From assembly GCF_000771225.1 (NCBI RefSeq), contig NZ_JDTZ01000002.1:124001-188000 (forward strand): DNA of 64,000 nucleotides. Direction: 5' to 3'. The notes below the pieces were generated by a model that saw nothing but the letters and a program-made list of their open reading frames with translations, was not told the origin of the DNA and did no database searches. This DNA is from Bifidobacterium pseudolongum subsp. pseudolongum DSM 20099 (GTDB lineage Bacteria; Actinomycetota; Actinomycetes; Actinomycetales; Bifidobacteriaceae). Positions 32,347 to 49,411 of the stretch are shown here, in pieces; position 1 is the first letter of the stretch; each line of letters opens with the position of its first letter. Made by a program: the position numbers and the translations under genes.

Positions 32347-35300
32347 GTGGTTTTCCGCGTCTATGTAGAGAAGAAACCCGGATTCGATGTCGAGGCCCAG
32401 CAGCTGACGAACGAGCTGCGCACCATCCTTGGCATCCGCACCCTCAAGGGCGTCCGACTCGTCAACCGGTATGACGTCGAGGGCATTGACGAACAGCTCT
32501 TCGAGCAGGTCGTGCCCACGGTGTTCAGCGAACCGCAGTCAGACAACGTGAGTTTTGACCTGCCGGATTTCGGCGAGAACGCCGTGTTCGCCGTGGAGTA
32601 CCTGCCCGGCCAGTTCGACCAGCGCGCCGATTCGGCGAGCGAGTGCATCCAGCTCATCAGCCAAGGCGAACGCCCCACCGTGCGCACCGCGACCGTCTAC
32701 GCGCTCGATGGCGAGTTGAACACACCCGACGTGGACGCGGTGAAACATTACGTGATCAATCCGGTCGAAGCACGCGAGGCGGGCCTCGAGACGAAAGACA
32801 CGCTCACCGCGCAGGTGCCCACCCCGGGCAAGGTCGAGGTGATCGACGGGTTCCGCGCGATGGAGACCGAGCAGATGGAGCGGTTCATCGCGGACCGCGG
32901 TCTGGCGATGGATGTGGCCGACCTCGAATTCTGCCGCCGGTATTTCGAGGAGGATGGCCGCGACCCGACCATCACCGAGATCCGTGTGATCGACACCTAT
33001 TGGTCCGACCACTGCCGCCACACCACGTTCGGCACACAACTCGACTCGGTGACGATCGACGACGCCGTGGTACAGGCCGCATTCGAGCGCTATCTGGCGA
33101 TGCGCGACGAACTGGGCCGCTCCGACCGCCCGGTCACCCTGATGGACATGGGCACGATCGGCGCCAAGTGGCTCAAGGCCAATGGCGTGATGACCGGCCT
33201 CGACGAGTCCGAAGAGATCAACGCGTGCACCGTCAAGGTGAAGGTCGATGTGAACGGCGAAGACGAGGATTGGCTGTTCCTCTTCAAGAACGAGACGCAC
33301 AACCACCCCACCGAGATCGAACCGTTCGGTGGCGCGGCCACCTGCATCGGCGGCTGCATCCGCGACCCGCTCTCGGGCCGCGCCTACGTGTATCAGGCAA
33401 TGCGCGTCACAGGCGCTGCTGACCCGCACACGCCGGTCGATGAGACGCTTGAGGGCAAGCTCCCCCAGCGCAAACTCGTCACCACGGCGGCCCACGGCTA
33501 TTCGTCGTACGGCAACCAGATCGGTCTGGCCACCGGCCAAGTCAACGAGATCTACCATCCCGGCTATGTGGCCAAGCGCATGGAGGTCGGCGCGGTCGTC
33601 GCGGCCACTCCCGCCGACCATGTGCGCCGTGAGACCCCGGCCCCGGGCGACAAGATCATCCTGCTGGGCGGCCGCACGGGCCGCGACGGCATCGGTGGCG
33701 CCACCGGTTCGTCGAAGGCGCACAATGTCGAATCGCTCGAGCTTGACGGCGCCGAGGTGCAGAAAGGCAACGCGCCCGTGGAGCGCAAGCTGCAGCGCCT
33801 GTTCCGCCGGGGCGACGCCACGCGCCTGATCAAGCGGTGCAACGACTTCGGTGCGGGCGGCGTCTCCGTGGCCGTGGGCGAGATCGCCGACGGCCTGGAC
33901 GTGGACCTGAACAAGGTGCCGAAGAAATACGAGGGCCTCGACGGCACCGAACTGGCAATTTCCGAATCCCAGGAACGCATGGCCGTCGATGTGGCCGCCG
34001 AGGACGTGGACGAGTTCCTGCGCTACGCCCAGGAAGAGAACCTCGAGGCTGTGGTGATCGCCACCGTGACCGAGGACCCGCGCATGGTGATGCGTTGGAA
34101 TGGCGACGAGATCGTCAACCTCTCCCGTGAGTTCCTCTCATCGAACGGCGCCGACAAGCACCAGGACGCCCATGTTGCGCAACAGGGCACCTATGCGACG
34201 CCGTTCAACGAAGGCACACTCGCCGAGCGGTTGGATGCGATGCTCAACGACATCAACGTGGCTTCCAACAAGGGTCTTGCCGAACGCTTCGATTCCACAA
34301 TCGGCGCCGGTACCGTACTGATGCCGTTCGGTGGCCGTGAACAGCTCACCGCGCCAATGGCCATGGTGGCGAAGCTCCCAGTGTTCGGCGAGACGACAAC
34401 GGCATCAGCCATGGCATGGGGCTTCAACCCGTACATCATGGAGCGCAACCAATTCACCGGCGCATACCTTTCTGTCGTGGAATCGCTCGCCAAGCTCGTG
34501 GCCGCCGGCTTCGAGCATGAAAAGGCGTACCTGAGCTTCCAGGAATACTTCGAGAAGCTGCGCGACGAACCCGACCGTTGGGGCAAGCCGGTCGCCGCCG
34601 TGCTGGGCGCGCTCATGGCCCAGGTCGACCTGGGTGCGGGCGCGATCGGCGGCAAGGATTCCATGTCCGGCTCGTTCGAGGACCTGGATGTGCCGCCCAC
34701 GCTGATTTCGTTCGCCGTGGCGGTCGGCGACATGCGCCGCGCCACCTCCCCCGAGTTCAAGGCGCCGGGCCACCGTGTGGTCCGCATCGCCCCCGTGTAC
34801 CATGCCGATGGCCTGACACCGGACAAGGACGGCCTGCTCGAGGCCTTCTCCACGGTCGAACAGCTCGTGGACTTCCATGACGCGGTGGCTATCTCCACCC
34901 CGGGCTATGGCGGCACCGCCGAAGCGCTGTTCCGCATGACGCTCGGTAACCACATCGGTGTGCGTTTGGTCGACGCGATCAGCGTCGACGACCTGTTCGC
35001 CCCGGCATACGGTTCGTTCATCGTCGAACTCGCCGATGACGCGAAGATCCCCGCCACGTCGAACCTCGTGGAGATCAGCGAAATCGGCGAAACGACCGAG
35101 GACTACACCTTCCATGCCGCTGGCGAGGATTTCGCCCTCGCGCCGCTGCAGGAGACATGGGAAAGCGCGCTTGAAGACGTGTTCCCCTACCGCCACACCG
35201 AACACCAGACCGACGAACTCGTGGAGACCGTGGTCTTCGACGCCGGCCGGCGCGCACCGTACACCGGACCGAAGATCGCCAAGCCGCGCGTGGTGATCCC

Positions 35301-36078
35301 GGTGTTCCCGGGCAACAACTGCGAATACGACACCGCCGCCGCGTTCGAGCGTGCTGGCGCGGAGGTCACGACGCTCATCGTCAACAACCTCACCCCGCAG
35401 TCCGTCACCGAATCGACGCAGGCGCTCGTCGAGCAGATTGGTCGCAGCCAGATCGTCATGATCCCCGGCGGTTTCTCGGGCGGCGACGAACCGGATGGTT
35501 CGGCGAAGTTCATCACCGCGTTCTTCCGCGCGCCCGCGGTCACCGAAGCCGTGCGCGATCTGCTCAAGAACCGCGATGGCCTCATGCTCGGCATCTGCAA
35601 TGGCTTCCAGGCCCTCATCAAGCTGGGTCTTGTGCCGTACGGCGACATCGTGCCGATGACCGACGAGTGCCCCACGCTCACGTTCAACGAGATCGGCCGC
35701 CACCAGAGCCGCCTTGTGCGCACGCGCATCGCGTCGAACCTCTCCCCCTGGCTTGCCAAGACCCAGGTGGGTGACGTGCACACCGTGGCGATCTCGCACG
35801 GCGAGGGCCGGTTCGTGGCGAGCCCCGACCTGCTCACGCAGCTTGCCACCAACGGCCAGATCGCCACGCAGTATGTGAGCGAAGACGGTGTGCCGAATAT
35901 GAACCTTGCGGTAAACCCGAACGGTTCGATGATGGCGGTTGAAGGCATCACGAGCCCCGACGGGCATGTGTTCGGCAAGATGGGCCATTCCGAGCGCTCG
36001 GGCAACGGCCTGTATGTGAATGTGCCGGGCAACACCTACCAACCGATCTTCGAGGCGGGTGTGGAATACTTCGCGTAA
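32347..36078 (+). CDS. purL: FGAM synthase, one-chain PurL
   Basis: A 1243-residue large-type enzyme that converts FGAR and glutamine to FGAM. The first 70 or so residues form the PurS-like domain (VFRVYVEKKPGFDVEAQQL). A linker and two synthetase halves follow (KNETHNHPTEIEPFGGAATC, GGKDSMSG). The C-terminal glutaminase domain (about 980-1243) starts PRVVIPVFPGNNCEYDTAAA, with catalytic Cys in MLGICNGFQALI and His-Glu in VAISHGEGRF. The start codon is GTG at 32347, with GAAGGAA upstream. Actinobacteria more often have separate PurS/Q/L, and the fused form is known in bifidobacteria. Ends in a strong hairpin. Confidence 0.97.
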   Translation: MVFRVYVEKKPGFDVEAQQLTNELRTILGIRTLKGVRLVNRYDVEGIDEQLFEQVVPTVFSEPQSDNVSFDLPDFGENAVFAVEYLPGQFDQRADSASECIQLISQGERPTVRTATVYALDGELNTPDVDAVKHYVINPVEAREAGLETKDTLTAQVPTPGKVEVIDGFRAMETEQMERFIADRGLAMDVADLEFCRRYFEEDGRDPTITEIRVIDTYWSDHCRHTTFGTQLDSVTIDDAVVQAAFERYLAMRDELGRSDRPVTLMDMGTIGAKWLKANGVMTGLDESEEINACTVKVKVDVNGEDEDWLFLFKNETHNHPTEIEPFGGAATCIGGCIRDPLSGRAYVYQAMRVTGAADPHTPVDETLEGKLPQRKLVTTAAHGYSSYGNQIGLATGQVNEIYHPGYVAKRMEVGAVVAATPADHVRRETPAPGDKIILLGGRTGRDGIGGATGSSKAHNVESLELDGAEVQKGNAPVERKLQRLFRRGDATRLIKRCNDFGAGGVSVAVGEIADGLDVDLNKVPKKYEGLDGTELAISESQERMAVDVAAEDVDEFLRYAQEENLEAVVIATVTEDPRMVMRWNGDEIVNLSREFLSSNGADKHQDAHVAQQGTYATPFNEGTLAERLDAMLNDINVASNKGLAERFDSTIGAGTVLMPFGGREQLTAPMAMVAKLPVFGETTTASAMAWGFNPYIMERNQFTGAYLSVVESLAKLVAAGFEHEKAYLSFQEYFEKLRDEPDRWGKPVAAVLGALMAQVDLGAGAIGGKDSMSGSFEDLDVPPTLISFAVAVGDMRRATSPEFKAPGHRVVRIAPVYHADGLTPDKDGLLEAFSTVEQLVDFHDAVAISTPGYGGTAEALFRMTLGNHIGVRLVDAISVDDLFAPAYGSFIVELADDAKIPATSNLVEISEIGETTEDYTFHAAGEDFALAPLQETWESALEDVFPYRHTEHQTDELVETVVFDAGRRAPYTGPKIAKPRVVIPVFPGNNCEYDTAAAFERAGAEVTTLIVNNLTPQSVTESTQALVEQIGRSQIVMIPGGFSGGDEPDGSAKFITAFFRAPAVTEAVRDLLKNRDGLMLGICNGFQALIKLGLVPYGDIVPMTDECPTLTFNEIGRHQSRLVRTRIASNLSPWLAKTQVGDVHTVAISHGEGRFVASPDLLTQLATNGQIATQYVSEDGVPNMNLAVNPNGSMMAVEGITSPDGHVFGKMGHSERSGNGLYVNVPGNTYQPIFEAGVEYFA

Positions 36079-36107: not shown

Positions 36108-36141
36108 GATGCGGCCGGCTCGTGATGGAGCCGGCCGCATC
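36108..36141 (+). terminator. Terminator after purL
   Basis: A perfect 14-bp stem GATGCGGCCGGCTC/GAGCCGGCCGCATC with 6-base loop GTGATG, followed by TTTGATT. Starts 30 bases after the purL stop. Confidence 0.85.
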
Positions 36142-36338: not shown

Positions 36339-37547
36339 TTACAGACCCAGAACCTGCTTCTTCTTGAGGTCAAATTCCTCCTGGGTGAGGATTCCGGCGT
36401 CAAGCAGCTCCTTGAGGCTCTTCAGTGTCTCCATCTGTTCCGCTACGGACATCGCGGGAGCCGGCGCAGGTTGCGACGCGGCTTGGGCGACTACCGGCTG
36501 TGCATCCGCTGCAGCGGCCATCGCATTCGCCGGATTCATCTGCTGGCCCGGCATCGCCCCGGTCATCGGGTTGACCCCCTGAGCGAAGCCGACCCCGAGC
36601 ATCATGCCGCCCATGTCGCCGAATCCGTTGTCTTGCACGCCTTGGGCGATTTTCTGCTGGGCGGCGATGTTCGACGCCTGCTGCGAGATGTTCTCGTACG
36701 CCGTCACATTCATGCGGTTCGACGAGTACTGCTTGACGAGTTCGCGCGATTCCGGCGTGAACTCGATGCTTTCGATGCCGATGCCCGCCAGATGGATGCC
36801 GAATCGTGACTCCCATGTACCCGCGTTTGTGGGGTCCTCGCTGATCGCGAGCGCGATTGCGTTCGCTTGGCTCGGCAACGCGGAGATACGGTATTCGTTG
36901 CTCAGCGAGTTGAGCGCGACCGAGAACGACTGCATGAATTCACTGAGCAGCTGCGACTTCGTTTTGGGGTCGTCGAAACTGATGTAGTCCACGTTCGGCG
37001 GTACGAATTGCCGGATGAACGCGGTCGGGTTCGTAATGCGCAACGACATCATGCCTCGTGCGCGAATGTCGAGATCGGTGTCGTAGAACTTGTCGTGGTA
37101 CATGAGCGGGGCCGGCGTGCCGAACTTGAGGCCGCGGATCTCGCGGAGGTTCACGAAGGCGACGCGCTTGTTCGCCACTGGTTCGCCGCCGTACTTGAAG
37201 CGTTCGCCGATCTGCCCGAAGATGGATTTGCCGATGCCGTCGCCCGCGAACACACTTTCGGTGCCGCCGGTGCGGTATTCGTACCCGCCGGACTCGGTGA
37301 TGATGCTTTCGATGCCCGACTGGTCGAAGATGAACGCGGCCGTGTTCTCAGGGACATAGATGCGCGACCCGTTGGAGATGACGGCATCGGAATGCTTGGT
37401 GTTCGACCCACGTCCTTGATTCGTTTCCTGATAGACACCCGGCATGAGTGCTACATGCTCATCGAATTGGCCGACCGTGATGATGTCGAGCCACTGATCG
37501 GCGAAGGTGCCGCCCAATGCGCCCGCGAATGCTTTGATCAATGCCAT
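36339..37547 (-). CDS. SPFH/Band-7 protein with C-terminal SHOCT domain
   Basis: A 402-residue protein of the virion-core-protein-like SPFH group (as B. subtilis YdjI). It begins MALIKAFAGALGGTFADQW. The SPFH region runs through about residue 240 (GSRIYVPENTAAFIFDQSG, FGTPAPLMYHDKFYDTDLDI, GIHLAGIGIESIEFTPESRE). A Gly/Met/Ala/Gln/Pro-rich linker follows (about 300-370), then a SHOCT domain (LKELLDAGILTQEEFDLKKK). Such proteins are thought to build membrane-associated scaffolds and often sit with zinc-ribbon partners. Here a GRAM-zinc-ribbon gene lies 37 bases upstream in the same direction, so an operon is likely. There is no N-terminal transmembrane segment. Confidence 0.82.
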   Translation of the reverse strand: MALIKAFAGALGGTFADQWLDIITVGQFDEHVALMPGVYQETNQGRGSNTKHSDAVISNGSRIYVPENTAAFIFDQSGIESIITESGGYEYRTGGTESVFAGDGIGKSIFGQIGERFKYGGEPVANKRVAFVNLREIRGLKFGTPAPLMYHDKFYDTDLDIRARGMMSLRITNPTAFIRQFVPPNVDYISFDDPKTKSQLLSEFMQSFSVALNSLSNEYRISALPSQANAIALAISEDPTNAGTWESRFGIHLAGIGIESIEFTPESRELVKQYSSNRMNVTAYENISQQASNIAAQQKIAQGVQDNGFGDMGGMMLGVGFAQGVNPMTGAMPGQQMNPANAMAAAADAQPVVAQAASQPAPAPAMSVAEQMETLKSLKELLDAGILTQEEFDLKKKQVLGL

Positions 37548-37584
37548 GGCTGCCTACTTCCCTCCATGCCTTACGGTGCGATAG

Positions 37585-38163
37585 TTACAGCTGACGCGAA
37601 GCAGTGCAATACTCACAGATGACTGTCTTCCCATGCCATCCAGTGAGTGTGGCGCCGCAGCCCGGGCATGATATACTCACTTTTTCAGCCACGACTTGCT
37701 GTGGGACTATTTTCTTGCTGAATGCTGTTGTGAACTGATTGGTGACACTACTCAATGCATTTGCAACGTCTGAGACCAATGTCTGCTTGGAACCGACCAA
37801 AGGGTTGGGGTCTCCTGTGATTTCCGCATTGAGCATGTTGACAAACGGTGCAAAATCTTCATATCGAGGGTCACTGAAGTGAATGACCCCATTCGACAAG
37901 TATGCTTTGCATTTATACCACGTATTATCTCGACTGTTCTTCGGCAGCTGCGTCACTTCAATGTGATCTATCGAGGAAAGTGGATATGAATACGAGTATT
38001 CCTCATCGGCACGGAACACATGAAGCTTCGCATAAGACAACACAAGACGTTTCGTTGTGATATAGACATGACCGGACTCGGAGATGCTCTTTATTTTATC
38101 ATCCCAAAATAAGCCATAGTCACCAATGATGGTTTCCCCATATTCGAGCTTAATTTCGTTCAT
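37585..38163 (-). CDS. GRAM/PH-like domain protein with C-terminal zinc ribbon
   Basis: A 192-residue cytosolic protein. Residues about 5-110 look like a GRAM/bacterial-PH beta domain (GHVYITTKRLVLSYAKLHVF, YPLSSIDHIEVTQL, KAYLSNGVIHFSDPRYEDF), a fold that binds lipids or membrane proteins. The C-terminus has a CPGCG...CEYC zinc-ribbon pair. I chose the ATG at 38163 (MNEIKLEYGE) because AGGAG lies six bases before it. It is followed closely by the SPFH gene, and the two probably act together at the membrane. Codon and base use are visibly more AT-rich than in the purine genes. The assignment is by pattern only. Confidence 0.65.
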   Translation of the reverse strand: MNEIKLEYGETIIGDYGLFWDDKIKSISESGHVYITTKRLVLSYAKLHVFRADEEYSYSYPLSSIDHIEVTQLPKNSRDNTWYKCKAYLSNGVIHFSDPRYEDFAPFVNMLNAEITGDPNPLVGSKQTLVSDVANALSSVTNQFTTAFSKKIVPQQVVAEKVSISCPGCGATLTGWHGKTVICEYCTASRQL

Positions 38164-38291
38164 GCTACTCCTCTCCATGCGCCTCGTTGCACATTGTTGC
38201 CTTCATCACCTAGCGGACCTTCACCACATGCTGTCACCTCTTCTGAAATCCGTGGGACACTCGGTGCGAATTCTGCAAAGAAGACGAAGGA

Positions 38292-38333
38292 TCAAGTCAG
38301 CGATTACACATTCGGACACAATCGCTGACTTGA
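38292..38333 (-). terminator. Hairpin between the repeat-bearing membrane gene and the GRAM gene
   Basis: Perfect 14-base arms TCAAGTCAGCGATT/AATCGCTGACTTGA around a 14-base loop, 20 bases past the stop of the gene to its right. Probably ends that transcript, leaving GRAM-SPFH with its own promoter. Confidence 0.7.
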
Positions 38334-38352
38334 CCGATCATTAGATGTCCTA

Positions 38353-39909
38353 TCAGGACTTGAATGCCGAAGCTTTCTTCATGTACCTATCCACATACTT
38401 CTGAATATCGAAATCCTTGCTGAAGAATTCGCTGTTAATATCTAGCCACGCGCTATAGGTATCAGATCGCATATCAAACCAATTCTCATAGAAGTCAGAA
38501 CGCGCGTCATACCAGTTCTCGTAGCATTCACTATGCACGTCATACCAAGCGCTGTAATCCTCATCTTCAGCTTTCTTGGCGTCGTCAGAGCGTTCAAGCA
38601 CACCCTCGTAATACTTGTCATTCATTTCCTCAAAGGCATCCTCATAGATGGAGTCCTCCAGATTTTTGAATTGATCTTCATACACATAGTCCTGATATTC
38701 TTCCATCACTGCATCGATCTCGTTGGAAGAAGCATTCTGCATGTTCTGAGCGATGTAGGTATAGAATTTACCGCTATTCTCGCCGATGCGCTGATACAGA
38801 TCAGCAGTACGGCTGTCTACATATGCATACCAGTCAGCGATTGCCTGCTTGTTCTGGTTGTACGAAGCATATGTATCTCCAACTTTCTCGAATGTGGCAT
38901 TGAGCTCATTATTGATGTCTGAAATCGCCGAATCAACATCCATGCCGATTGCAGTCAAAGCCTCACCTGCAGCGCCAGGCGCCTTGATATTATCCGTGGA
39001 TTGCGTGGTGTCATTGGCTGTGGATTCCGAAGACGATGGAGAGGGACTCTCCGACGGCTCTTCAGAACTTGAGGAGGATGGTTTGCTGCTTGAAGATGGT
39101 GAGGAGGAGGAAGATGACGAAGGCGTTTTTGCCGCAGTCGTTGTCATGGCCTTCGGCATATTCACACAGCCGAAGATGATGGCAAGCACTGATATACCTA
39201 CAGCTACACCGGAAAGGATGCGGTTCGCAAGATTCTTGTCAAGCATGAGCGAGGCATACAGCGAGAATCCTGAAAAGGCTAGTGAGACGATGCCGAGCAC
39301 CCATACCAGCCATGCCCCGGTCTTGGGAGTGAGCACAATAAGCAGAATCAGCGCAATCACAGATACAGCCAATGCGCCGATGGCCAGATAGAGCACCCAT
39401 GATGCGGGCTTCTTTGGTGTAGGTGTACCACCGCTTGCAGATTGGGCATTCCACGTCTGTTGAGTCAGCTGCGGCTGGGTTGCGTTCATCTGCTGCATCA
39501 TGAGCTCCCGGTTCAGTTCACCAAAGAAGACCATGGATTCCATCTGAAGGCTCGCTGTTGGCTGTCCTTGCGGAACGAACTGAACAACAGAGCCTGTCTG
39601 CACTCCCGGAACAACATGTACCATATACAAAACACCGTCGTTACGCGAAGCAACAGATGCGGTCTTAGCAACGTCATCGGCCATGATCAGCCCAAACGAC
39701 TGACTATGCATGAGCGCGTTCTTTACAGCTTGATAGACGTCTTCCACCGACTGAGGAAATTGCTGCGCGGGAATCTGCGGCAAAGACTGTGTTGCAGTGT
39801 CCGGCGTAGATGCGGCGCCAGTAGCCATTGCGACTGGTTGCTCAGCTGTGTCGAATGGCGTTTTTGTTGTGGGTCGCTCCGGCATTGGAGTGGGATCTGG
39901 AGTGGACAT
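38353..39909 (-). CDS. Membrane protein with Ser-rich linker and 11-residue aromatic repeats
   Basis: A 518-residue protein of unknown function. A Pro/Thr-rich N-terminus is followed by a globular part (about 50-135, SVEDVYQAVKNALMHSQSF, GVLYMVHVVPGVQTGSVVQF). Then come three hydrophobic segments (about 175-260: ASWVLYLAIGALAVSVIALI, the next starting GAWLVWVLGIVSLAFSG, and ILSGVAVGISVLAIIFG). A Ser/Pro-only linker (about 275-320) leads to an acidic helical tail. Near the C-terminus four 11-residue units repeat: SAWYDVHSECY, ENWYDARSDFY, ENWFDMRSDTY, SAWLDINSEFF. The layout suggests a cell-surface or membrane-sensor protein. It is AT-rich compared with core genes. Confidence 0.7.
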   Translation of the reverse strand: MSTPDPTPMPERPTTKTPFDTAEQPVAMATGAASTPDTATQSLPQIPAQQFPQSVEDVYQAVKNALMHSQSFGLIMADDVAKTASVASRNDGVLYMVHVVPGVQTGSVVQFVPQGQPTASLQMESMVFFGELNRELMMQQMNATQPQLTQQTWNAQSASGGTPTPKKPASWVLYLAIGALAVSVIALILLIVLTPKTGAWLVWVLGIVSLAFSGFSLYASLMLDKNLANRILSGVAVGISVLAIIFGCVNMPKAMTTTAAKTPSSSSSSSPSSSSKPSSSSSEEPSESPSPSSSESTANDTTQSTDNIKAPGAAGEALTAIGMDVDSAISDINNELNATFEKVGDTYASYNQNKQAIADWYAYVDSRTADLYQRIGENSGKFYTYIAQNMQNASSNEIDAVMEEYQDYVYEDQFKNLEDSIYEDAFEEMNDKYYEGVLERSDDAKKAEDEDYSAWYDVHSECYENWYDARSDFYENWFDMRSDTYSAWLDINSEFFSKDFDIQKYVDRYMKKASAFKS

Positions 39910-39947
39910 TTGACCGTTCCCTTCTTCATACTTTCTTCACATATAAC

Positions 39948-40008
39948 CGACAAAGCATTACAGGGTGATGCAGCAACACATCGCCGCATCACCCTGTAAT
40001 GCCTGTCG
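39948..40008 (-). terminator. Long hairpin after the 47-residue small gene
   Basis: 17-base perfect arms (39955-39971 and 39986-40002), extended by CGACA/TGTCG outside a few unpaired bases. It begins directly after the TGA of the small frame at 40009, on the minus strand, and is followed by TTTGTCGG. Confidence 0.75.
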
Positions 40009-40152
40009 TCAGTCGGCCTGTGTGGAAGAACCGTCAGGTCTTCCTTCGTGGTCGTCGACGCAGTGCACCTCGCCTTGTTGCTCCGGTTCTTGCACCGCAT
40101 CCTCGAACGCTCGTACACCGCGCAGTATCATGCCTGCCAATTGCGTAAACAT
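40009..40152 (-). CDS. Small 47-residue protein of unknown function
   Basis: On the minus strand, AGAGGAG sits six bases before an ATG at 40152 that opens 47 codons: MFTQLAGMILRGVRAFEDAV, then an acidic hydrophilic tail with CVDDHEG, ending SSTQAD. A long hairpin begins right after the stop. A good ribosome site, a short frame and an adjacent terminator together make a real small gene likely. The first 20 residues could form an amphipathic helix and the rest looks disordered. It precedes the repeat-bearing membrane gene in the same direction. It could be a membrane-active peptide or regulator. No family was recognised. Confidence 0.6.
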   Translation of the reverse strand: MFTQLAGMILRGVRAFEDAVQEPEQQGEVHCVDDHEGRPDGSSTQAD

Positions 40153-40401
40153 GACTGCACTCCTCTCTGACGAGACATTCCCTTGTACGCAACCGACCTT
40201 CGGCTACACAGCGAGCGGATGGCACCGCTCACAGGAACTCGTCATTAAGGGGCATGTTTTATTCGCGAATCAGCACTCCTTCCCCTACGCGATCCAGTGC
40301 GAAACAGTTGTAATGACGAGCGTTTCACGCTAGAACCATTCTCGAATCTTTGATTTATAGTGTCAATGACATAACATGATATAAATCTGAAATAAATGTG
40401 C
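40153..40401. other. Divergent AT-rich control region
   Basis: About 250 bases between the small minus-strand gene and the plus-strand XRE gene. It contains an inverted pair CTCGTCATTA (near 40238) and TAATGACGAG (40311-40320) about 63 bases apart, and an AT-rich stretch after 40340. Probably holds both promoters and regulator sites. Confidence 0.4.
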
Positions 40402-40414
40402 TATGTTTTATACC

Positions 40415-41113
40415 ATGGATACTATAAACGAGGCGAGTGCACAGGCGTGGAGAACCCGCCTGCGGGCATGTATGGACGAACGGGGGCTCACCCAGCTGGG
40501 ATTGGTCAGCGCGCTCAACCGCCAGTACCTCACGAAATACCACCAAAAAGACGTCAGCCGCTGGCTCAACACCGGCAATCGCACCACGAGCGGCGTCATC
40601 GGCTTCCCCAAGTACGAAACGATGTCCATTCTCGCGGATTTCTTCGGTGTGGATGTGGGGTATCTGACCGGCGAGACCGATGAGCGGAGTTTTAACCTGC
40701 AGCACGCATGCGATTACCTGAGTCTTGATGGATCTGCGATCAGCGCACTGCGCAAATGGATTCGCAAAGGCACAGGCAGCACCACAGATGACGGTAAAAA
40801 CCCCACTATGCGCAGCTACCGCGCGGACACACTTAACGAACTTTTCTCTTCCCCCGAATTTGGAACCATGGCAGCAAAACTGCTCACCTTGCATGAAATG
40901 TCCGCAATCTGGCAAACCAATCCCGAACGGTTCAGTTCGCTTATGGCCTCGCTCGCTTCAGACAGCGAACTTCCCGACGACCTGACATTTCAACTCATTC
41001 TCGGCGCGTTCTATGGCATGGCGAGCGAGTCATTCTCCGCGCTTCTAAGAAGTGCTTACCCAATTCCAAACGAACAGCAGTTCGAACAACTCATCATCGA
41101 ACATGATTCCTGA
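40415..41113 (+). CDS. XRE-family transcription regulator
   Basis: A 232-residue protein with an N-terminal helix-turn-helix (about 10-75: AWRTRLRACMDERGLTQLGL, KDVSRWLNTGN, FPKYETMSILADFFGVDVGY). The C-terminal part is unlike known effector domains. No Shine-Dalgarno sequence precedes the ATG at 40415 or the in-frame ATG at 40403. TATGTT at 40402-40407 is placed as a -10 so that RNA would begin at 40415, which points to a leaderless message. The AT-rich upstream region and the divergent small gene suggest local regulation. The next gene in the same direction begins 186 bases on. Confidence 0.75.
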   Translation: MDTINEASAQAWRTRLRACMDERGLTQLGLVSALNRQYLTKYHQKDVSRWLNTGNRTTSGVIGFPKYETMSILADFFGVDVGYLTGETDERSFNLQHACDYLSLDGSAISALRKWIRKGTGSTTDDGKNPTMRSYRADTLNELFSSPEFGTMAAKLLTLHEMSAIWQTNPERFSSLMASLASDSELPDDLTFQLILGAFYGMASESFSALLRSAYPIPNEQQFEQLIIEHDS

Positions 41114-41298
41114 CCGGACATGAGCATTATCACATCAGTATGAGGCCGAGCCCCGCTCACACACAATCTCCTACGAACATTCACGGAAACATGCGTCATT
41201 CCAGCCTTGGCTTGCGATACCATGTCGATACATCAGATGGCTTATCGAATTCTCGGCAACGGGAAACAGGCCGATTCAGAAAGAGAGAGGACCGTGCC

Positions 41299-42540
41299 AT
41301 GGCGCATGAGATCGAAGTTTACGGCGATGATGACGGATTCATGCTTCTTGGCGATTCCGCAGATATTCGACAGGCTTTAGCCGAACTTCAGATTGAAGAG
41401 AATCACACTATCGATATCGGCAAAGCCGCGATATTGAAAAATGCACATCGTGCTGTGAAGTTGTTCGGGAAAATGCAAAAACGTTCAGGACGCTGGGTGA
41501 AATTCACCAAGGAATCTGCGGAAAAAGCTCAGAAATACGGCTTGCTGCGCAATAAATCAACTGGCAATTTCATGGGAGTAATAGGCCAAGCGGCCAAAGG
41601 TGGCATCAAGGGTAACGTACAGTTTGAGACAATGGTAGAAGTATTCACACCCGACAAGGTAGCGAATATCGAGATGCTCATGCTGACGCTTGCCCTAGAG
41701 CAGGCCATGAAAGAGATGACTGACTACCTCAAGCAGATTGATGCTAAAGTCGATCAGGTATTGCGACAGCAAAAGAACGCCGAACTGGCAAAATTCCTCA
41801 GCGTTGCAGGTTTGGCCACGGAGGCCGAAAAAGAATTGCAACACATAGGCAGCCTTTCAGACGCAACTTGGGACCAGTTGAGCAACAGTGCCCAAACGGT
41901 GAATGAAGTGCAGCAGTATTCACTGCTTCAGCTCAAAGACATCACAGAGAAGATTAATTCTGCAGCGGATACCCGATCCGCCAAAGACGTATTGACAACC
42001 GTTCGTCCACGCATCGGGGAATGGCTTGCCGTCGCCGCAGATTGTCTTCGCATGCGGGATCGAATAGACATGCTTAAGGTGCAGCGGTTTATCGATATGG
42101 GCATCGAACCAGATCTCTTGAGCAAGCATCGGTTCGTCATCACAGAAAACCGTCGCGCACGCTATCGATCACTAACCGATACCACTGCCAACTTGCAGCA
42201 AGCCATCAAAAACGTCGTGCAAGGCAAAGATGATACCATGCGCGTTATTCTCCTGCCAATGGATGCGCCTGTTGTGGTGCGTGAAGGCAATGCGATCGCG
42301 AGCGCCCTCGCTCGATTCGACAAGGCGCTAGGAAAGGAATATGCGGTTCCGCGCTTCAACGAAAAACAGTGGGATCAGGCAATGGGTGAGGTCGGACAGG
42401 CCATTGCGGACGGCACGGGGCAACTCATGCACTACGCCGAGGGGATTTTTGGCGAGGGCACCAAGCAGATTGGGAATGTCGCCAACGAGGCTGGAGATCA
42501 GATCAAAAAAGTATTTGGGAATTTCCCGAAATTGTGGTGA
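41299..42540 (+). CDS. Helical cytosolic protein of unknown function
   Basis: A 413-residue protein I do not recognise. I chose the ATG at 41299 (MAHEIEVYGDDDGFMLLG) because GAGAGAGGACC lies before it; the frame extends to 41140 without support. It appears mostly helical, with a likely coiled coil about 120-165 (ALEQAMKEMTDYLKQIDAKV) and no clear membrane segment. The C-terminus is Gly-rich and amphipathic (GEGTKQIGNVANEAGDQIKK). It is AT-rich like its neighbours and lies just after the XRE regulator on the same strand. A bidirectional hairpin ends it. Phage-related or membrane-stress roles are possible but unsupported. Confidence 0.6.
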   Translation: MAHEIEVYGDDDGFMLLGDSADIRQALAELQIEENHTIDIGKAAILKNAHRAVKLFGKMQKRSGRWVKFTKESAEKAQKYGLLRNKSTGNFMGVIGQAAKGGIKGNVQFETMVEVFTPDKVANIEMLMLTLALEQAMKEMTDYLKQIDAKVDQVLRQQKNAELAKFLSVAGLATEAEKELQHIGSLSDATWDQLSNSAQTVNEVQQYSLLQLKDITEKINSAADTRSAKDVLTTVRPRIGEWLAVAADCLRMRDRIDMLKVQRFIDMGIEPDLLSKHRFVITENRRARYRSLTDTTANLQQAIKNVVQGKDDTMRVILLPMDAPVVVREGNAIASALARFDKALGKEYAVPRFNEKQWDQAMGEVGQAIADGTGQLMHYAEGIFGEGTKQIGNVANEAGDQIKKVFGNFPKLW

Positions 42541-42609
42541 CAGACGCTCGTCTTGTCTCCTTTCCGACGCTGGCGCAGGCGCAGCCCAGCTCACATAAGC
42601 ACATGAATA

Positions 42610-42659
42610 CGGCCTTTCGTGGAATCCATCACACCGTCAATGGATCTCACGAAAGGCCG
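42610..42659. terminator. Bidirectional hairpin between convergent genes
   Basis: 20-base arms (42610-42629 and 42640-42659) match at 18 positions around a 10-base loop. It lies between the stops of the unknown helical gene and the DUF4230-like gene and can end both. Confidence 0.8.
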
Positions 42660-42684
42660 CGATATGCACGTTCCATCACCGTAT

Positions 42685-43302
42685 TCAGTCCTCCTCAGCC
42701 TGTTTGAATATGAAGTTGAGCTTCGCATCCGGACTGACGCTCCGTACGATGGATGTATAGAATGATTCCGCTTGATCCTCGAGTATGTCGCGGTTCTTCT
42801 CGACATACTCGCTCCTCGCCTTGTCGGACAGAATCTCGTTGATCATATTGGCCGTATCGATCTGCGGGGTGCCAAAACTCAATGCACCATTCTGATCGAC
42901 CACCGTACGGTATTCAGGGTGGTCATACCCGATGAACTTGAATTCGGGAATCGTGATGTCGTATGTATTATCACTGGCTGGCTCAATAACAACGTCTTTG
43001 CCGTCGAATCCGAGTTTGGCATCAAACGAATATTGGATGAACTGCGCGCGCTCGGTACCAGGAATCTCCATATTGAAGAAATGGCTTTTGTTTTCTTTTG
43101 ATTTTATTCCAGTGATGCCGAGACGAAGCAAAGACACCTCTTTAGTCTGTTCCATCGCATGAATCACCTGCGTGTCAGTGGATTTAGAACTGCTTGAGAG
43201 GACTGCCGGAATGCCCGGAACCGCCCCATACAAGACGGCGACAATGGCTGCACCTACTACAACAGCGCCAATACACGTCGTGATCTTCTTGATCACACCC
43301 AT
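42685..43302 (-). CDS. DUF4230-like single-span membrane protein
   Basis: A 205-residue protein. It begins MGVIKKITTCIGAVVVGAAI, an N-terminal membrane anchor, followed by an extracytoplasmic domain. The domain has FIQYSFDAKLGFDGKDVVI, then YDITIPEFKFIGYDHPE, and a helical end (DILEDQAESFYTSIVRSVSP) that resembles DUF4230 proteins of Gram-positives. The function of that family is unknown. A GGAGG site is nine bases before the ATG at 43302, so I prefer it to the ATG at 43308. A minus-strand -10 (TATGAT, 43484-43489) would give a leader of about 175 bases. Confidence 0.6.
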   Translation of the reverse strand: MGVIKKITTCIGAVVVGAAIVAVLYGAVPGIPAVLSSSSKSTDTQVIHAMEQTKEVSLLRLGITGIKSKENKSHFFNMEIPGTERAQFIQYSFDAKLGFDGKDVVIEPASDNTYDITIPEFKFIGYDHPEYRTVVDQNGALSFGTPQIDTANMINEILSDKARSEYVEKNRDILEDQAESFYTSIVRSVSPDAKLNFIFKQAEED

Positions 43303-43618
43303 ATGCATGGACCTCCATCCAATATGGAATGATGCGGCACCGCCCACCGCATATCATGGATACCCACATCTGCTGTGCCGTATCCATCCGCGGCAAGGTC
43401 CATTCGACCGCTTCATCCTTTCTTCTACCTGAACACGATGAAGGCCCCTCTCTGCATGCTCCATCGCCATTGATTGCGATGGTATCATACTTCGCTCGGC
43501 CTCATGCCCCACAGGGAGATTGGCGAGACAATGCACGCAAGCACATCCAATGGTGTCCTCACCCAGCACCGAACCTATAAGCGCACTGTGCAGAATCGAA
43601 GTTTCATTAGCGATCCAT
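43303..43618. other. Intergenic region with candidate promoter and palindrome
   Basis: About 316 bases between the GTPase stop and the DUF4230-like start. On the minus strand TATGAT (43484-43489) could be a -10, with the palindrome CCATCGC/GCGATGG (43461-43482) directly downstream, where an operator could lie. No gene is seen here. Confidence 0.4.
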
Positions 43619-44842
43619 TCAATGCTTGCGGTTGAGGAACGCGGCCTTGACCAGTTCGATGATCATCTGCCGCATGTCTTTGCCGCCACCGGCTTGGGAC
43701 GCTTGCGCGATGCCGCTGACTTTTCCGAGGAATCCTTCTCCGAACTGCTCTTCCATCAGATGCTGCACCCAGCCGATGTCGCGCACGCTCCGCTGGCCGG
43801 TATACACCTGTTCGAACGCGATCACCGCGCCCTCGCCGAGCGCCGCGATGATGCTCGCCGCCACAATCGCATTGAGCACACTGGCGGCGATATTGATGCC
43901 TGGAATCGCCTTGATCGCACTGATCGCCGAATGAGCCACCACGCCCGCAGTGCCCACCTGCACAATCGAATCGAGGAATTGCTTGGAATCCTCATCGCGG
44001 TCAATCTCATACAGGCGCGCCAATCCGTTGAGCTCGGCGAGCTCGAGCGGCGAGAGCACGAGCGAATCAGCAATCGGAATCGGCACTGCGCCCACGGTCG
44101 CACCGGCCGCCACGCTCGCCCCAATCAGGCCTTGCGCAAGCACGCGCTTGCGGGTGAGTTTGAACTGCATCAGGTCGTGCGCGCCGCCCTGCATGCCTTC
44201 GGGCATCGCGCGCATCGTCGCGTCGATCAGGTCGGTGATGCCTTCCGGCGGCGCGAACGCCGTCTCGTTGATCACGAATGTCTGCGCGACGACCGGCACG
44301 ATCGCGCGCAGGTTGCGTTCCACACGCTGCCCGTGGAACGCCTGCCGCACCATCTCGATGTTGCGCGCGCGATCTGCCTGCGAATACGACTTGGTGATGA
44401 CGGCGATGATCGGCACAGACTTCCACATCGCGATCGAGTTGGAGAAGTTGCGGATCGTCTCTGGGAACAGCTTCGCCGCCGTGCCATCCACACAGAACCA
44501 AATCACGTTGATGCGGCTGTTCTCATTGCCCTCTTGCGCACTCGACCGCGACCATTTGCGTACGGCGTGGATTGCGCGCAGACTCTTGATCGGCGAAGGT
44601 TCGAATCCGATGGAGTCGATGACACGGAACGGCACCGATGGACTTGCGTAGATGGCAAGCTCCTCGGTTGTGCCACGCGTGCCGAAACTGGTCTTGGCGA
44701 TGTCATCGCCGATCACGGCGTTGATGAGCGTCGATTTGCCCACGCCGGAATTCCCCAGCACGAGCACGTTGCCTTTATGGACCGGCTGCTGGGGTGCAGG
44801 GGCGGGCTGCACGTCGATTACATGGCCGTTGTCGTATGTCAT
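43619..44842 (-). CDS. DUF697-type GTPase
   Basis: A 407-residue P-loop GTPase. G1 is LGNSGVGKSTLINAVIG, the G2 region is TSFGTRGTTEE, G3 is RVIDSIGFEPS, and the G4 position reads TKSYSQAD, a departure from NKxD. The C-terminal half has Gly/Ala/Ile-rich helices (VAAGATVGAVPIPIADSLVL, INIAASVLNAIVAASIIAAL) of the DUF697/YcjF kind that contact membranes. I chose the ATG at 44842 (MTYDNGHVID). TATGAT ends six bases before it with no ribosome site, so the mRNA is probably leaderless. The role is unknown; relatives act in membrane or stress responses. Confidence 0.75.
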   Translation of the reverse strand: MTYDNGHVIDVQPAPAPQQPVHKGNVLVLGNSGVGKSTLINAVIGDDIAKTSFGTRGTTEELAIYASPSVPFRVIDSIGFEPSPIKSLRAIHAVRKWSRSSAQEGNENSRINVIWFCVDGTAAKLFPETIRNFSNSIAMWKSVPIIAVITKSYSQADRARNIEMVRQAFHGQRVERNLRAIVPVVAQTFVINETAFAPPEGITDLIDATMRAMPEGMQGGAHDLMQFKLTRKRVLAQGLIGASVAAGATVGAVPIPIADSLVLSPLELAELNGLARLYEIDRDEDSKQFLDSIVQVGTAGVVAHSAISAIKAIPGINIAASVLNAIVAASIIAALGEGAVIAFEQVYTGQRSVRDIGWVQHLMEEQFGEGFLGKVSGIAQASQAGGGKDMRQMIIELVKAAFLNRKH

Positions 44843-44933
44843 GCGGTTATCATAGGCACATCGCATACGGCTGCGCCCTTGGCGTTTTCACGTCAAGGGC
44901 GCAGCATTCGGTGGAGGGGCAGTGCCCCACAGG

Positions 44934-45518
44934 TCACTTGTCTTGTGAAGAGTCCGAGCTGTCTTCGTCCGAACTGGTTCGGCCGGCTGTGCGATCGGCT
45001 TCCTTCTGCCGCTCCTCGGCCTGCTTCTTCGCCTCCTCGGCGCTGCGCGGAATGCCGGCGAGCTCAGAGCCCGTGGCTTCCTTCATGCGCTTGTCGACTT
45101 TGTCGATGACCTCGTCGAAGTACTTCTCCTGTTCGGGGGTGAGCTTCGAATTGCTCACGGCGTCGAACTGCGCCATCATGTCGTCGAAGCCCGCGAGCCA
45201 ATCGGTATACTCCTTGGCCTTCGATGCCGGCATGCCGTCCTGGCTGTTGAGCATCTCCGCGAAATCGGCGTACTTCATCATGAAGTCCTCGTAATTGCGG
45301 ATGACCTCCATCGGATCGGTCGTGGACGGCGTGACCGTGGTGGATTCCGAGGGAGACGGCGACGCCTCCGCCGCCACCGTCTCGGCCGAAGCCTGCGGCT
45401 CAGCGCCACGCTGCGGCAGATGGAACACGAACACCGCCACACATGCCGCCACGACGGCCACGACAACACCAATGATGCCGATGATCCACGCCGTTTTCTT
45501 GGATTGCGCTCGCTGCAT
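44934..45518 (-). CDS. Membrane-anchored acidic protein of unknown function
   Basis: A 194-residue protein. A short basic N-terminus and one hydrophobic segment (about 10-33, AWIIGIIGVVVAVVAACVAV) anchor it, followed by a Ser/Thr/Pro-rich spacer (about 45-68). A helical domain (about 70-165, MEVIRNYEDFMMKYADFAEM) and a charged tail (ERQKEADRTAGRTSSDEDSS) complete it. The domain resembles a small family of actinobacterial and Gram-positive surface proteins without a known function. GGGAG precedes the ATG. It lies upstream of the GTPase in the same direction, 91 bases apart. Confidence 0.65.
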   Translation of the reverse strand: MQRAQSKKTAWIIGIIGVVVAVVAACVAVFVFHLPQRGAEPQASAETVAAEASPSPSESTTVTPSTTDPMEVIRNYEDFMMKYADFAEMLNSQDGMPASKAKEYTDWLAGFDDMMAQFDAVSNSKLTPEQEKYFDEVIDKVDKRMKEATGSELAGIPRSAEEAKKQAEERQKEADRTAGRTSSDEDSSDSSQDK

Positions 45519-45653
45519 CTCAACTCCCTGACATCGTTTGCAAAACTAGTACGATCACGTAATTCCATGGTAGCAACGAACAACGCCCACCACCAGCGTA
45601 CAACGCAGAAAATCCACCAAAATACACACGAAATTCACGTCTTGCGTTGCTCG

Positions 45654-46079
45654 TTATACTTCACTCAGCTCAATGCGCACGATGTCAACCACGGGAACTA
45701 CTCTGCCGTCCGCCATCTCGAGCGCATTGGTTTCGGCATGGTATTTCACCACCACACCGCCTTCAATGCACTGGTATTCCCCGCCGGCGCCCTCGTCATC
45801 CATACGGAAAAAGGTCATATCCACGCGCGGGCGCTCACCCAAATGCGCCAATACCGCCGCGAGTCGCGCATTGAGCGCCTCCTGCGCGTCTTCGCCCAGT
45901 TCGATATGCCGCTGGCGCACCTTGGCCGTCTCCCGAAGCAGGTCCTCATACCCGGCCAACGCCGCGAACGGCATGAATTGCGCGGCGCGCTGCTCCATGG
46001 CCATGGGCCGGTGCCGTTTGGATTGATGATGCGGCATGTCGATGATGTCGTCGTACCGGTGGGTGTTTTCGATGTTCAT
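45654..46079 (-). CDS. YolD-like protein
   Basis: A 141-residue protein with the YolD-family core RPMAMEQRAAQFMPFAALAG, followed by YEDLLRETAKVRQRHIELGE and a beta-rich end. YolD-like proteins are typically encoded beside Y-family DNA polymerases of the UmuC type in Gram-positives, and a role as a small partner is assumed. Its ATG overlaps the polymerase stop codon (ATGA), so the two are translated together and share the LexA-controlled promoter. Confidence 0.8.
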   Translation of the reverse strand: MNIENTHRYDDIIDMPHHQSKRHRPMAMEQRAAQFMPFAALAGYEDLLRETAKVRQRHIELGEDAQEALNARLAAVLAHLGERPRVDMTFFRMDDEGAGGEYQCIEGGVVVKYHAETNALEMADGRVVPVVDIVRIELSEV

Positions 46080-47617
46080 GCCGCATGGCCCCCTATCTGC
46101 CGGTTGCGTTCCACGCCCGTGGCGCCTTCTTCGAGGTTGAGGCCCTTGATCACCGCGTTGCCACCGAACCGCTCTTTGACATGCAGCAACGTCTCTTGCA
46201 TCTTCATCTCACGCTCCTCCTGCCGTGTGCGACTCTCATCACTGCGGCCCCCTTCATCCTGCACAAGGAACGAGAACAGGTCGGGCTGCTCGGTCTCGGC
46301 GGCACTAGCCCCACTCACATCCCCCGGATCATGCACGGCATGCACCTGCGATGCCTCCACATTGAGCCGCCGCACGAGCAGCGAGCTGTCGACGATGCGG
46401 TCGTACAGCGAGCCAATCGCCTCGCGCAACACCGAGGACGCGGCCGTGCGCCGCCCCAGATTCAATGATCCATGCGCGCTTTTGGGGCGCCGGCGGCCGT
46501 ATCGATCTCGCGAGACCGGCCCGGTGTACCCCGCCGCGCCCGGCTGATCCAGACTCGTCACGTCGTACCCCACCGACAAAGTCACCTGACTGGTCAGGAT
46601 GCCACGCTTGACCATGCCCAACGCCAGTTGATCCGCCATCTCGCAGGCCACGATACGTGCATGCTCCCAGTCGTACGGCTCATGGAGCACCTGCCCCGAC
46701 CCCATGCTGGAATGCTCCGGCCGGTATTGCTTGACGTCGGCAATCGTGCTTGGTTCCCATCCCCATGCGTGATCGATGAGCAGCTCGGCGTTCACACCAA
46801 ACAGCCGGTATAGCAGGTCTTCATTGTAATAAGAATCGGCACCACCCACCGAGCACCGTGCCACATCGCCCATCGTCAACAGTCCGTGGCGCTCCAATTG
46901 ACGCGCGGTGCCCGGACCCACACGCCAGAAATCGGTGAGAGGCCGGTGAGCCCACAACAGCCGCCGGTACGCCGCCTCGTCGAGCTGCGCGATGCGCGCT
47001 CCGTCAGCCCCGGCAGCGGTGTGCTTCGCCACGATGTCCATAGCGACTTTGGCCAGATAGAGGTTGGTGCCTATGCCTGCGGTGGCCGTGATGCCGGTTT
47101 CCGCATAGATGCCGGCCACGATGCGCCGCGCAAGCTCATGGGCGCTGCCTCCCGCGAACCGCAAGTACCGCGTGGCGTCGATGAACACCTCATCGATCGA
47201 ATACACATGGATGTCCTCTTGCGCGGCGAACCGCAGATAGATGCCATAGATGCGCGCACTCACATCAAGGTAGTACGCCATGCGCGGTTTGGCGGTGACG
47301 TACGCAAGCGCCAAACCGGGCGAGGCCGCCAACTCCGCGGCATGCACGGAGGACCCTGAAAAGCGGTGCCCAAGTGCGCGCAACCGCCGCGCCTCGTTGA
47401 CCTGCGCCACACGCTGCTCGACCTCGAACAGACGCGGACGCCCACCGATGCCGACGGCCTTGAGCGATGGAGAGACCGCAAGACAGATGGTCTTGCTCGT
47501 CCGGCTTGCATCAGCCACCACCAGGTTCGTGTCCAGCGGATCGAGCCCCCTCGCCACACACTCGGCCGAGGCATAGAACGATTTGAGGTCTATGGCTAGG
47601 TACGTGCGGTCTGTCAT
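46076..47617 (-). CDS. Y-family translesion DNA polymerase (UmuC-like)
   Basis: A 513-residue error-prone polymerase. Catalytic motifs: TYLAIDLKSFYASAEC (first metal Asp) and YSIDEVFIDATRYL (Asp-Glu pair). The helix-hairpin-helix region is PLTDFWRVGPGTARQLERHG, followed by the little-finger domain (ILTSQVTLSVGYDVTSL). The C-terminal about 70 residues are polar and contain QPDLFSFL, a likely sliding-clamp contact. The ATG at 47635 lies inside the LexA box, so I chose the ATG at 47617 (MTDRTYLAI). An ATGA overlap joins it to the YolD gene. Expressed as part of the SOS response, judging from the operator. Confidence 0.9.
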   Translation of the reverse strand: MTDRTYLAIDLKSFYASAECVARGLDPLDTNLVVADASRTSKTICLAVSPSLKAVGIGGRPRLFEVEQRVAQVNEARRLRALGHRFSGSSVHAAELAASPGLALAYVTAKPRMAYYLDVSARIYGIYLRFAAQEDIHVYSIDEVFIDATRYLRFAGGSAHELARRIVAGIYAETGITATAGIGTNLYLAKVAMDIVAKHTAAGADGARIAQLDEAAYRRLLWAHRPLTDFWRVGPGTARQLERHGLLTMGDVARCSVGGADSYYNEDLLYRLFGVNAELLIDHAWGWEPSTIADVKQYRPEHSSMGSGQVLHEPYDWEHARIVACEMADQLALGMVKRGILTSQVTLSVGYDVTSLDQPGAAGYTGPVSRDRYGRRRPKSAHGSLNLGRRTAASSVLREAIGSLYDRIVDSSLLVRRLNVEASQVHAVHDPGDVSGASAAETEQPDLFSFLVQDEGGRSDESRTRQEEREMKMQETLLHVKERFGGNAVIKGLNLEEGATGVERNRQIGGHAA

Positions 47618-47628
47618 GGCAGCATTTT

Positions 47629-47642
47629 CGAACACCTGTTCG
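47629..47642. promoter_or_regulatory. LexA/SOS box
   Basis: On the minus strand CGAACAGGTGTTCG, an exact match to the Gram-positive/actinobacterial LexA pattern CGAAC-N4-GTTCG, inside the larger palindrome CATTTTCGAAC/GTTCGAAAATG. It lies 12 bases upstream of the polymerase start. Confidence 0.9.
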
Positions 47643-47860: not shown

Positions 47861-49411
47861 TTGTCAGCTGAACTCGAAGAGATCCACGAAGAATGCGGTA
47901 TTTTTGGCGTCTGGGGTCATCCGGATGCGGCTCGACTCACCTATTTCGGTCTGCATGCGCTGCAGCACCGCGGGCAGGAGGGCGCCGGCATCGTGGCCAA
48001 CGACCACGGCCATCTTTCCGGGCATCGTGGGCTCGGCCTGCTCACACAGGTGTTTCAGAACGAAAAAGACATCGAAAAACTCAAGGGCGAACATGCGATC
48101 GGCCATGTCCGCTACGCGACCGCCGGCTCCGGCGGCATCGACAACATCCAGCCGTTCATCTTCCGTTTCCATGATGGCGACATGGCGCTGTGCCACAACG
48201 GCAATCTGACGAACTGCTTCTCGCTGCGCCGTGCGCTCGAGGACGAAGGCGCCATCTTCCATTCGAATTCCGACACCGAGGTGCTCATGCACCTGATTCG
48301 CCGCTCGGTGCGCAGCACGGTCATCGACAAGCTGCAGGAAGCCCTCAACACCGTGCACGGTGGATTCGCGTACCTGATCATGACAGAGAACGAGATGATC
48401 GGCGCGCTCGACCCCAACGGCTTCCGCCCGCTCTCCCTGGGCCGCATGTCGAACGGCGCCTATGTGCTCGCCTCCGAGACCTGCGCGCTCGACGTTGTGG
48501 GTGCAGAACGCATCCGCGACATCCAACCGGGCGAGATGATCGTGATCAACGACGAGGGCTACCGCATCATCACCTACACGAGCAACACGCAGCTCTCGAT
48601 CTGCTCGATGGAGTTCATCTACTTCGCACGCCCCGACTCGGACATCTACGGCGTGAACGTGCATTCGGCGCGCAAGCGCATGGGCGCGCGCCTGGCCCAG
48701 GAGGCCCCGGTGGACGCCGACATGGTGATCGGCGTGCCGAACTCCTCGCTTTCCGCGGCCTCGGGCTATGCGGAGGAATCCGGACTGCCCAATGAGATGG
48801 GCCTGATCAAGAACCAGTACGTGGCGCGCACATTCATCCAGCCCACGCAGGCGCTGCGCGAACAGGGCGTGCGCATGAAGCTCTCCGCCGTCAAATCGGT
48901 CGTCAAGGGCAAGCGCATCATCGTCATCGACGATTCGATTGTGCGCGGCACCACGTCACGGCGCATCGTGCAGATCCTCAAAGAGGCGGGCGCGGCCGAA
49001 GTGCACATGCGCATCAGCTCACCGCCGCTGAAATACCCGTGCTTCTACGGCATCGACATCTCGACGACGCAGGAGCTCATCGCCGCGAAGAAATCGGTCG
49101 AGGAGATCCGCGAGTTCATCGGCGCGGATTCGCTCGCGTTCCTCTCCGTGGACGGCCTGATCGAGTCGATCGGCCTGCACGCCGACGCCCCGTACGGCGG
49201 CCTGTGCGTCGCGTACTTCAACGGCGACTACCCCACCGCGCTCGACGATTACGAGCAGGACTTCCTCGATTCTCTCTCCCCCGACGACCTGGTGCGCCTG
49301 CCGGGTTACGACCACCAGAAGACGATGTACGAGGGCACCGAATACACGCACAAAGTGAACGGTCGGCACGCTTCGGTCGATCCGACCGACTACTGCATCG
49401 CGAACGAATGA
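47861..49411 (+). CDS. purF: Amidophosphoribosyltransferase PurF
   Basis: A 516-residue enzyme catalysing the first committed step of purine synthesis, PRPP and glutamine to phosphoribosylamine. The glutaminase Cys follows a short propeptide, [41 protein letters not shown] and the PRPP loop [15 protein letters not shown] are present. The start is TTG at 47861 with AAGGAG seven bases upstream. A terminator lies between purF and purM. Regulation by purines is likely, but no operator was identified. Confidence 0.96.

Follow-up and report, generated by a model that had tools for sequence, protein, structure and literature searches.

A predicted four-helix bundle with 11- and 12-residue periods, and its possible place in an SPFH-linked membrane module of Bifidobacterium pseudolongum

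The window analysed here is a 64,000-nucleotide stretch of contig NZ_JDTZ01000002.1 of Bifidobacterium pseudolongum subsp. pseudolongum DSM 20099, and the gene under study encodes a membrane protein with a tandem repeat in its C-terminal part (Table 1). In the direction of transcription, the repeat gene is followed by a gene for a GRAM/zinc-ribbon-like protein and then by one for an SPFH protein ending in a SHOCT domain. The GRAM/zinc-ribbon-like gene is also kept at two other loci, L066 and L060 (Bifidobacterium choerinum), where orthologues of the repeat protein have 60% and 49% identity, respectively. A hairpin lies between the repeat gene and the two genes that follow, so their co-transcription is uncertain; it is possibly a terminator or an attenuator. 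The genome of the window holds one copy of the repeat domain.

Table 1. Features of the repeat gene and its surroundings (positions in the window).
Feature	Position	Strand	Basis or remark
SPFH/Band_7_1 protein with C-terminal SHOCT	36339..37547	-	PF13421 E 1.4e-11, PF09851 E 5.5e-8
GRAM/bacterial-PH-like domain with C-terminal CxxC...CxxC zinc-ribbon-like motif	37585..38178	-	Weak Pfam matches, below cut-off
20-pair hairpin, just past repeat gene, before GRAM gene	38290..38335	-	Pattern only; 5 sites found vs 3.6 expected
Repeat-protein ORF	38353..39909	-	518 aa; N-terminal domain, then three TM helices (predicted), a linker rich in Ser/Pro and the ectodomain with the repeat bundle
Repeat-bundle ectodomain, residues 304-518	38356..39000	-	AlphaFold2; four long helices and a short fifth
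Four 11-residue repeats, helix 4, residues 453-496	38422..38553	-	Sequence, alignment, AlphaFold2
12-residue periodic stretch, helix 3, residues 406-442	38584..38694	-	Profile autocorrelation
Ser/Pro-rich linker, residues ~256-310	38980..39144	-	Read from sequence
Three hydrophobic segments, predicted to be transmembrane helices, residues ~169-250	39160..39405	-	Read from sequence
N-terminal soluble domain, residues ~53-140	39490..39753	-	Compared with paralogue sequences
Separate DUF6591 protein, one TM segment	44934..45518	-	PF20234 E 3.2e-13; 5 kb away

The N-terminal soluble domain, which is common to Bifidobacterium paralogues bearing other ectodomains or none, is presumed to be cytoplasmic. 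With the N-terminus inside, three transmembrane segments, being odd in number, would place the C-terminal domain outside the cytoplasmic membrane, and this also agrees with the homologues, which are mostly lipoproteins. The window protein has no lipobox signal peptide; the N-terminal domain and the three hydrophobic segments stand in its place. Between this putative anchor and the repeats, the Ser/Pro low-complexity linker reported in a preliminary description of the locus is present at about residues 256-305.

The repeat itself consists of the four tandem units named in that description, SAWYDVHSECY, ENWYDARSDFY, ENWFDMRSDTY and SAWLDINSEFF, which follow each other head to tail and gapless. 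Identity at an offset of 11 reaches 48% over these 44 residues; 100,000 shuffles, compared at all offsets between 5 and 17, never attained this value. Across 58 aligned homologous domains, the family consensus of the unit is Y-x-x-W-S-D-x-R-S-D-x, with Tyr conserved at 99%, Asp at 90%, Ser at 88% and Trp at 71%; the window protein departs from the typical member by a Y, F or L after the Trp, a position where most relatives have S. The preliminary description held that homologues lacking the repeat would speak against it, and in both phyla where homologues were found they keep it, four units being recognisable in 48 of the 58 sequences. As this helix is also free of indels in 57/58 domains, the repeat appears to be a fixed element and not an expanding tandem array. 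An equally strict period, of 12 residues (consensus YDxIYDGxLDDx), runs through helix 3, which precedes the repeat helix. The profile autocorrelation is 0.71 at 12 for helix 3 and 0.78 at 11 for helix 4, with 0/2,000 shuffles (of columns, for helix 4) reaching the value in either case, and the hydrophobic period is about 4.0 residues in the former versus 3.64 in the latter.

An 11-residue period corresponds to 3.67 residues per turn, and on an 11/3 wheel of helix 4 Trp, Val/Ile and Tyr fall on one side and Ser and Asp on the other. In the model, this period would keep Tyr, Trp, Asp and Ser each on one face of the helix over four units, and the 12-residue period would act similarly in helix 3, so that rows of Tyr/Trp and rows of Asp/Ser recur. 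The near invariance of Ser and Asp, though on the polar side, suggests a surface in use or a buried polar network. The pair of periods offers a natural case of sequence repeats within a compact bundle.

That compact bundle is predicted with high confidence. AlphaFold2, run on residues 304-518 as a monomer with 58 sequences, gave a pLDDT of 93.6 and a pTM of 0.90, with helices at model residues 9-40, 44-86, 92-144, 149-194 and 200-211, and the repeats form helix 149-194, the fourth long helix. The helical nature of the repeats expected in the preliminary description was thus borne out, while the compact bundle and the 12-residue period of helix 3 had escaped it. The same bundle is predicted for a divergent Bacillota member (pLDDT about 98), whose DUF6591 forms a separate helical segment past a low-confidence linker. 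It is highly probable that the domain is a bundle of four long helices and that it represents a domain family.

Foldseek gave no match at E<=0.001 among PDB structures and viral models, and the PDB sequence search returned generic coiled coils only, covering helices 1-2. The top VIA-align matches were designed proteins, namely the iTHR 9mg8 (Z 14.3 and 15.8) and the THR blocks 8ga7 and 8gel. Long-helix bundles often reach a Z near 13 through arrangement alone, and the VIA-align matches to designed bundles, MukF, syntaxins and STATs (Z 9-16) were read as a common arrangement and not as kinship. The designed twistless helix repeats (8ga7, 8gel), together with the iTHR entries 9mg8 and 9d01, which are known here by title, give the best structural alignments (VIA Z 11.9-15.8) and share side-by-side long helices with the domain, but they are designed proteins and no relatives. 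THR designs are built from ideal straight helices (PMC10972742), and the match fits the long, parallel-lying helices of the model without indicating kinship.

To survey the family, GTDB representatives were scanned and loci outside the genome of the window were counted. The domain was found at 54 loci in Actinomycetota and Bacillota of the gut, the hosts being Olsenella, Collinsella, Enorma, Slackia and other Coriobacteriia, Bifidobacterium, Lachnospiraceae, Oscillospiraceae, Holdemanella and Erysipelotrichaceae; they look gut-associated, as judged from record title and lineage. Within the genus survey it occurred in 9 of 112 genomes, and among 396 genomes drawn from the phylum four had it, the window's own included. 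A complete domain spans about 205 residues, is carried twice in six proteins, and is strongly acidic (median net charge -40) and rich in aromatic residues. A lipobox-like start was detected by a simple pattern at 41/54 loci. In 24 of 53 proteins the C-terminus is extended by over 100 residues, and this extension proved to be DUF6591 in all four that were scanned. Neither Pfam nor NCBIfam provided a convincing model for the repeat domain in the window protein or its relatives (58 domains), nor did any repeat model of either collection match the pattern, in line with the earlier remark that knew of no named repeat of this kind. Its status as an undescribed and unmodelled family is well supported. 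Defining it fills a gap: the family is widespread in Actinomycetota and Bacillota of the gut, has no model in either collection and has a confidently predicted structure. Searches of viral contigs, plasmids and phages returned no homologues and hence no sign of mobile carriage there. Some copies appear broken: in genome G027 (L028, L007) the rest of the domain is read in a different frame, and at L092/L093 the ORF ends within the fourth repeat region. In an Enorma-like genome (G499, L036), the intact gene adjoins another copy of the domain, with DUF6591, that looks degenerate and has lost most of the conserved Tyr and Asp residues.

The sequences show that the repeat bundle can be exchanged on its type of anchor. 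Relatives of the anchor (N-terminal domain and transmembrane part) in Bifidobacterium bear either the repeat bundle or DUF6591, or lack an ectodomain, and at L060 (4948-9727) three tandem paralogues with the same anchor type show one of each. In Bifidobacterium, DUF6591 can replace the repeat domain after this anchor, and in the scanned lipoproteins of Coriobacteriia and Bacillota it directly follows the repeat domain; it is likewise uncharacterised, extracytoplasmic and helix-containing. The two nevertheless differ, since DUF6591 is a separate segment past a disordered linker and the PF20234 profile has no match in the window protein and is absent from the families listed in the scan of the 58 domains, while it does match neighbouring domains and paralogues. 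A search of the available literature retrieved no paper on DUF6591 and none that treats DUF4839 or DUF4230 in connection with lipoproteins.

The neighbourhood of the domain gene differs between Bifidobacterium and the other hosts. An SPFH gene lies near it at L060, L066, L076 and L082. Such proximity is seen in B. pseudolongum, B. choerinum and B. pullorum, and also in a single Clostridia genome (50% identity). Both an anchor gene of this type and an SPFH gene were located in 12 Bifidobacterium genomes, and in 10 of these the former lies at most 5 kb upstream of the latter and shares its strand. SPFH co-occurs with the domain in 6/9 genomes of the genus, versus 25/103 of those without it (Fisher p 0.013, phylogeny ignored). 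Of 48 scored domain loci, 18 have a Ser/Thr kinase as neighbour and 13 an unnamed four-TM protein, which in 10 of them is encoded immediately upstream; the others are MerR-like (8) and XRE-like (7) proteins, DUF4839 (6), DUF4230 (5) and SPFH (5, one of them a weak match); outside Bifidobacterium, the kinase and the four-TM protein are commoner neighbours than SPFH. The four-TM protein, its TM segments counted by eye, has about 185 residues and an LPYASA-like motif, and it stands beside the domain gene in both phyla (L050 5253-5807, L068 4339-4944, L074 288-848 and ten other loci); Pfam gave no match for three members, and it may be a partner of the domain protein.

The function of the repeat protein is inferred from gene order, and the closest analogy is found in Bacillus subtilis, where recruitment of the soluble SPFH protein YdjI depends on the membrane proteins YdjG and YdjH, and YdjI in turn localises PspA (PMC8581546). 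By analogy, the window protein could be the anchor or receptor of its SPFH neighbour. Both systems have a Band_7_1-type SPFH gene beside genes for membrane proteins, and B. subtilis matched PF13421 in a control search; in contrast to the PspA-YdjGHI system, no PspA was seen near the window gene and the window protein has a large repeat ectodomain. The likeness to YdjG/YdjH is proposed as one of role and gene linkage. In the mechanism proposed, the bundle would be displayed outside the cytoplasmic membrane, on a lipid anchor in most relatives and on a three-TM anchor here, as the interchangeable outer domain of an anchor in an SPFH-centred envelope-maintenance module; it would bind or sense an envelope component or a cationic ligand, and the cytoplasmic and transmembrane part would recruit the SPFH protein. 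The repeats, the family, the exchange of domains and the gene order can be read from the sequences and the fold is a prediction, whereas topology, ligand binding and coupling to SPFH are inferred. We assign a probability of roughly 0.45 to the complete statement, fold included, that the bundle serves outside the cytoplasmic membrane as receptor or scaffold domain in a membrane-maintenance module linked to SPFH. The part concerning the repeat protein as membrane anchor in an SPFH module is offered tentatively, at odds somewhat short of even. The main weakness of the SPFH reading is that the linkage is strong only within Bifidobacterium. This reading bears on whether SPFH proteins of gut bacteria have outward-facing sensor anchors, and the gene associations link the repeat-bundle family to SPFH, kinase and DUF6591 genes.

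A rather unlikely alternative is a surface receptor or binding domain that has no link to SPFH, binds a cation, cationic peptide or glycan, and either signals via the nearby Ser/Thr kinase or acts as a shield. The acidity of the domain, the near-invariant Asp and Ser on the polar side of helix 4, and the presence of the kinase (in both phyla) and of the four-TM protein among the neighbours would all agree with such a receptor. However, it has no known ligand-binding relative, the Foldseek searches gave no significant match, and the kinases of other genomes resemble many phage-defence kinase models in a non-specific manner and may be unrelated neighbours. In the window itself, PADLOC assigned no system to any gene and gave weak matches only. 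A bolder version, which we regard as doubtful, is that the neighbouring helices of periods 12 and 11 make up a repeating Tyr/Asp/Ser/Trp lattice. Outside the cell, this lattice would bind a ligand that is itself repetitive or cationic, such as a host peptide, a wall polymer or a metal array, and couple it to an SPFH, PspA-like or kinase response.

The preliminary description suggested a right-handed coiled coil or amphipathic ladder, which here would oligomerise independently on the disordered stalk. Its helical, amphipathic character and exact 11-residue period, placed after a Ser/Pro linker, were upheld, and the period along a long helix at about 3.67 residues per turn is what hendecad (11/3) helices of right-handed coiled coils show. 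The separate stalk was not: in the monomer model (pTM 0.90) the repeat makes up a single helix of an intramolecular bundle and has a 12-period neighbour, the other three helices are also conserved in homologues, and the units are fixed at four, unlike those of stalks, whose number usually varies. An independent coiled coil is thus very unlikely. Less probable still is a lipid-binding amphipathic 11-mer helix like those of apolipoproteins or alpha-synuclein, since, beyond the shared period, the weak profile matches to apolipoprotein A-IV that the PDB sequence search gave (E 8e-4) fall on helices 1-2 (profile positions 6-100), outside the repeat, and the family is strongly acidic, poor in Lys/Arg and confidently predicted as a bundle. 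An ice-binding protein, with 11-mers in a helix bundle, was dropped, as there is no Ala/Thr pattern and no cold niche.

In the wider surroundings, positions 36339-47635 hold a block of envelope- or membrane-type genes, comprising the SPFH, GRAM/zinc-ribbon and repeat proteins, an HTH-like protein, a GTPase (weak DUF697) and DUF6591, and also an IMS (UmuC-type) polymerase. The block is flanked by a purL-like gene (32347-36078) and a purF-like gene (47861-49411), and it is possibly an island. Within it, a 220-residue protein with one hydrophobic segment (42685-43347, minus strand) resembles by eye the DUF4230 neighbours of the Coriobacteriia loci; Pfam gave no match, and its counterparts at L060 and L066 have 71-75% identity. 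Directly past the purL stop codon, a perfect, G+C-rich hairpin of 14 pairs (36108-36141) is probably a terminator between the converging genes.
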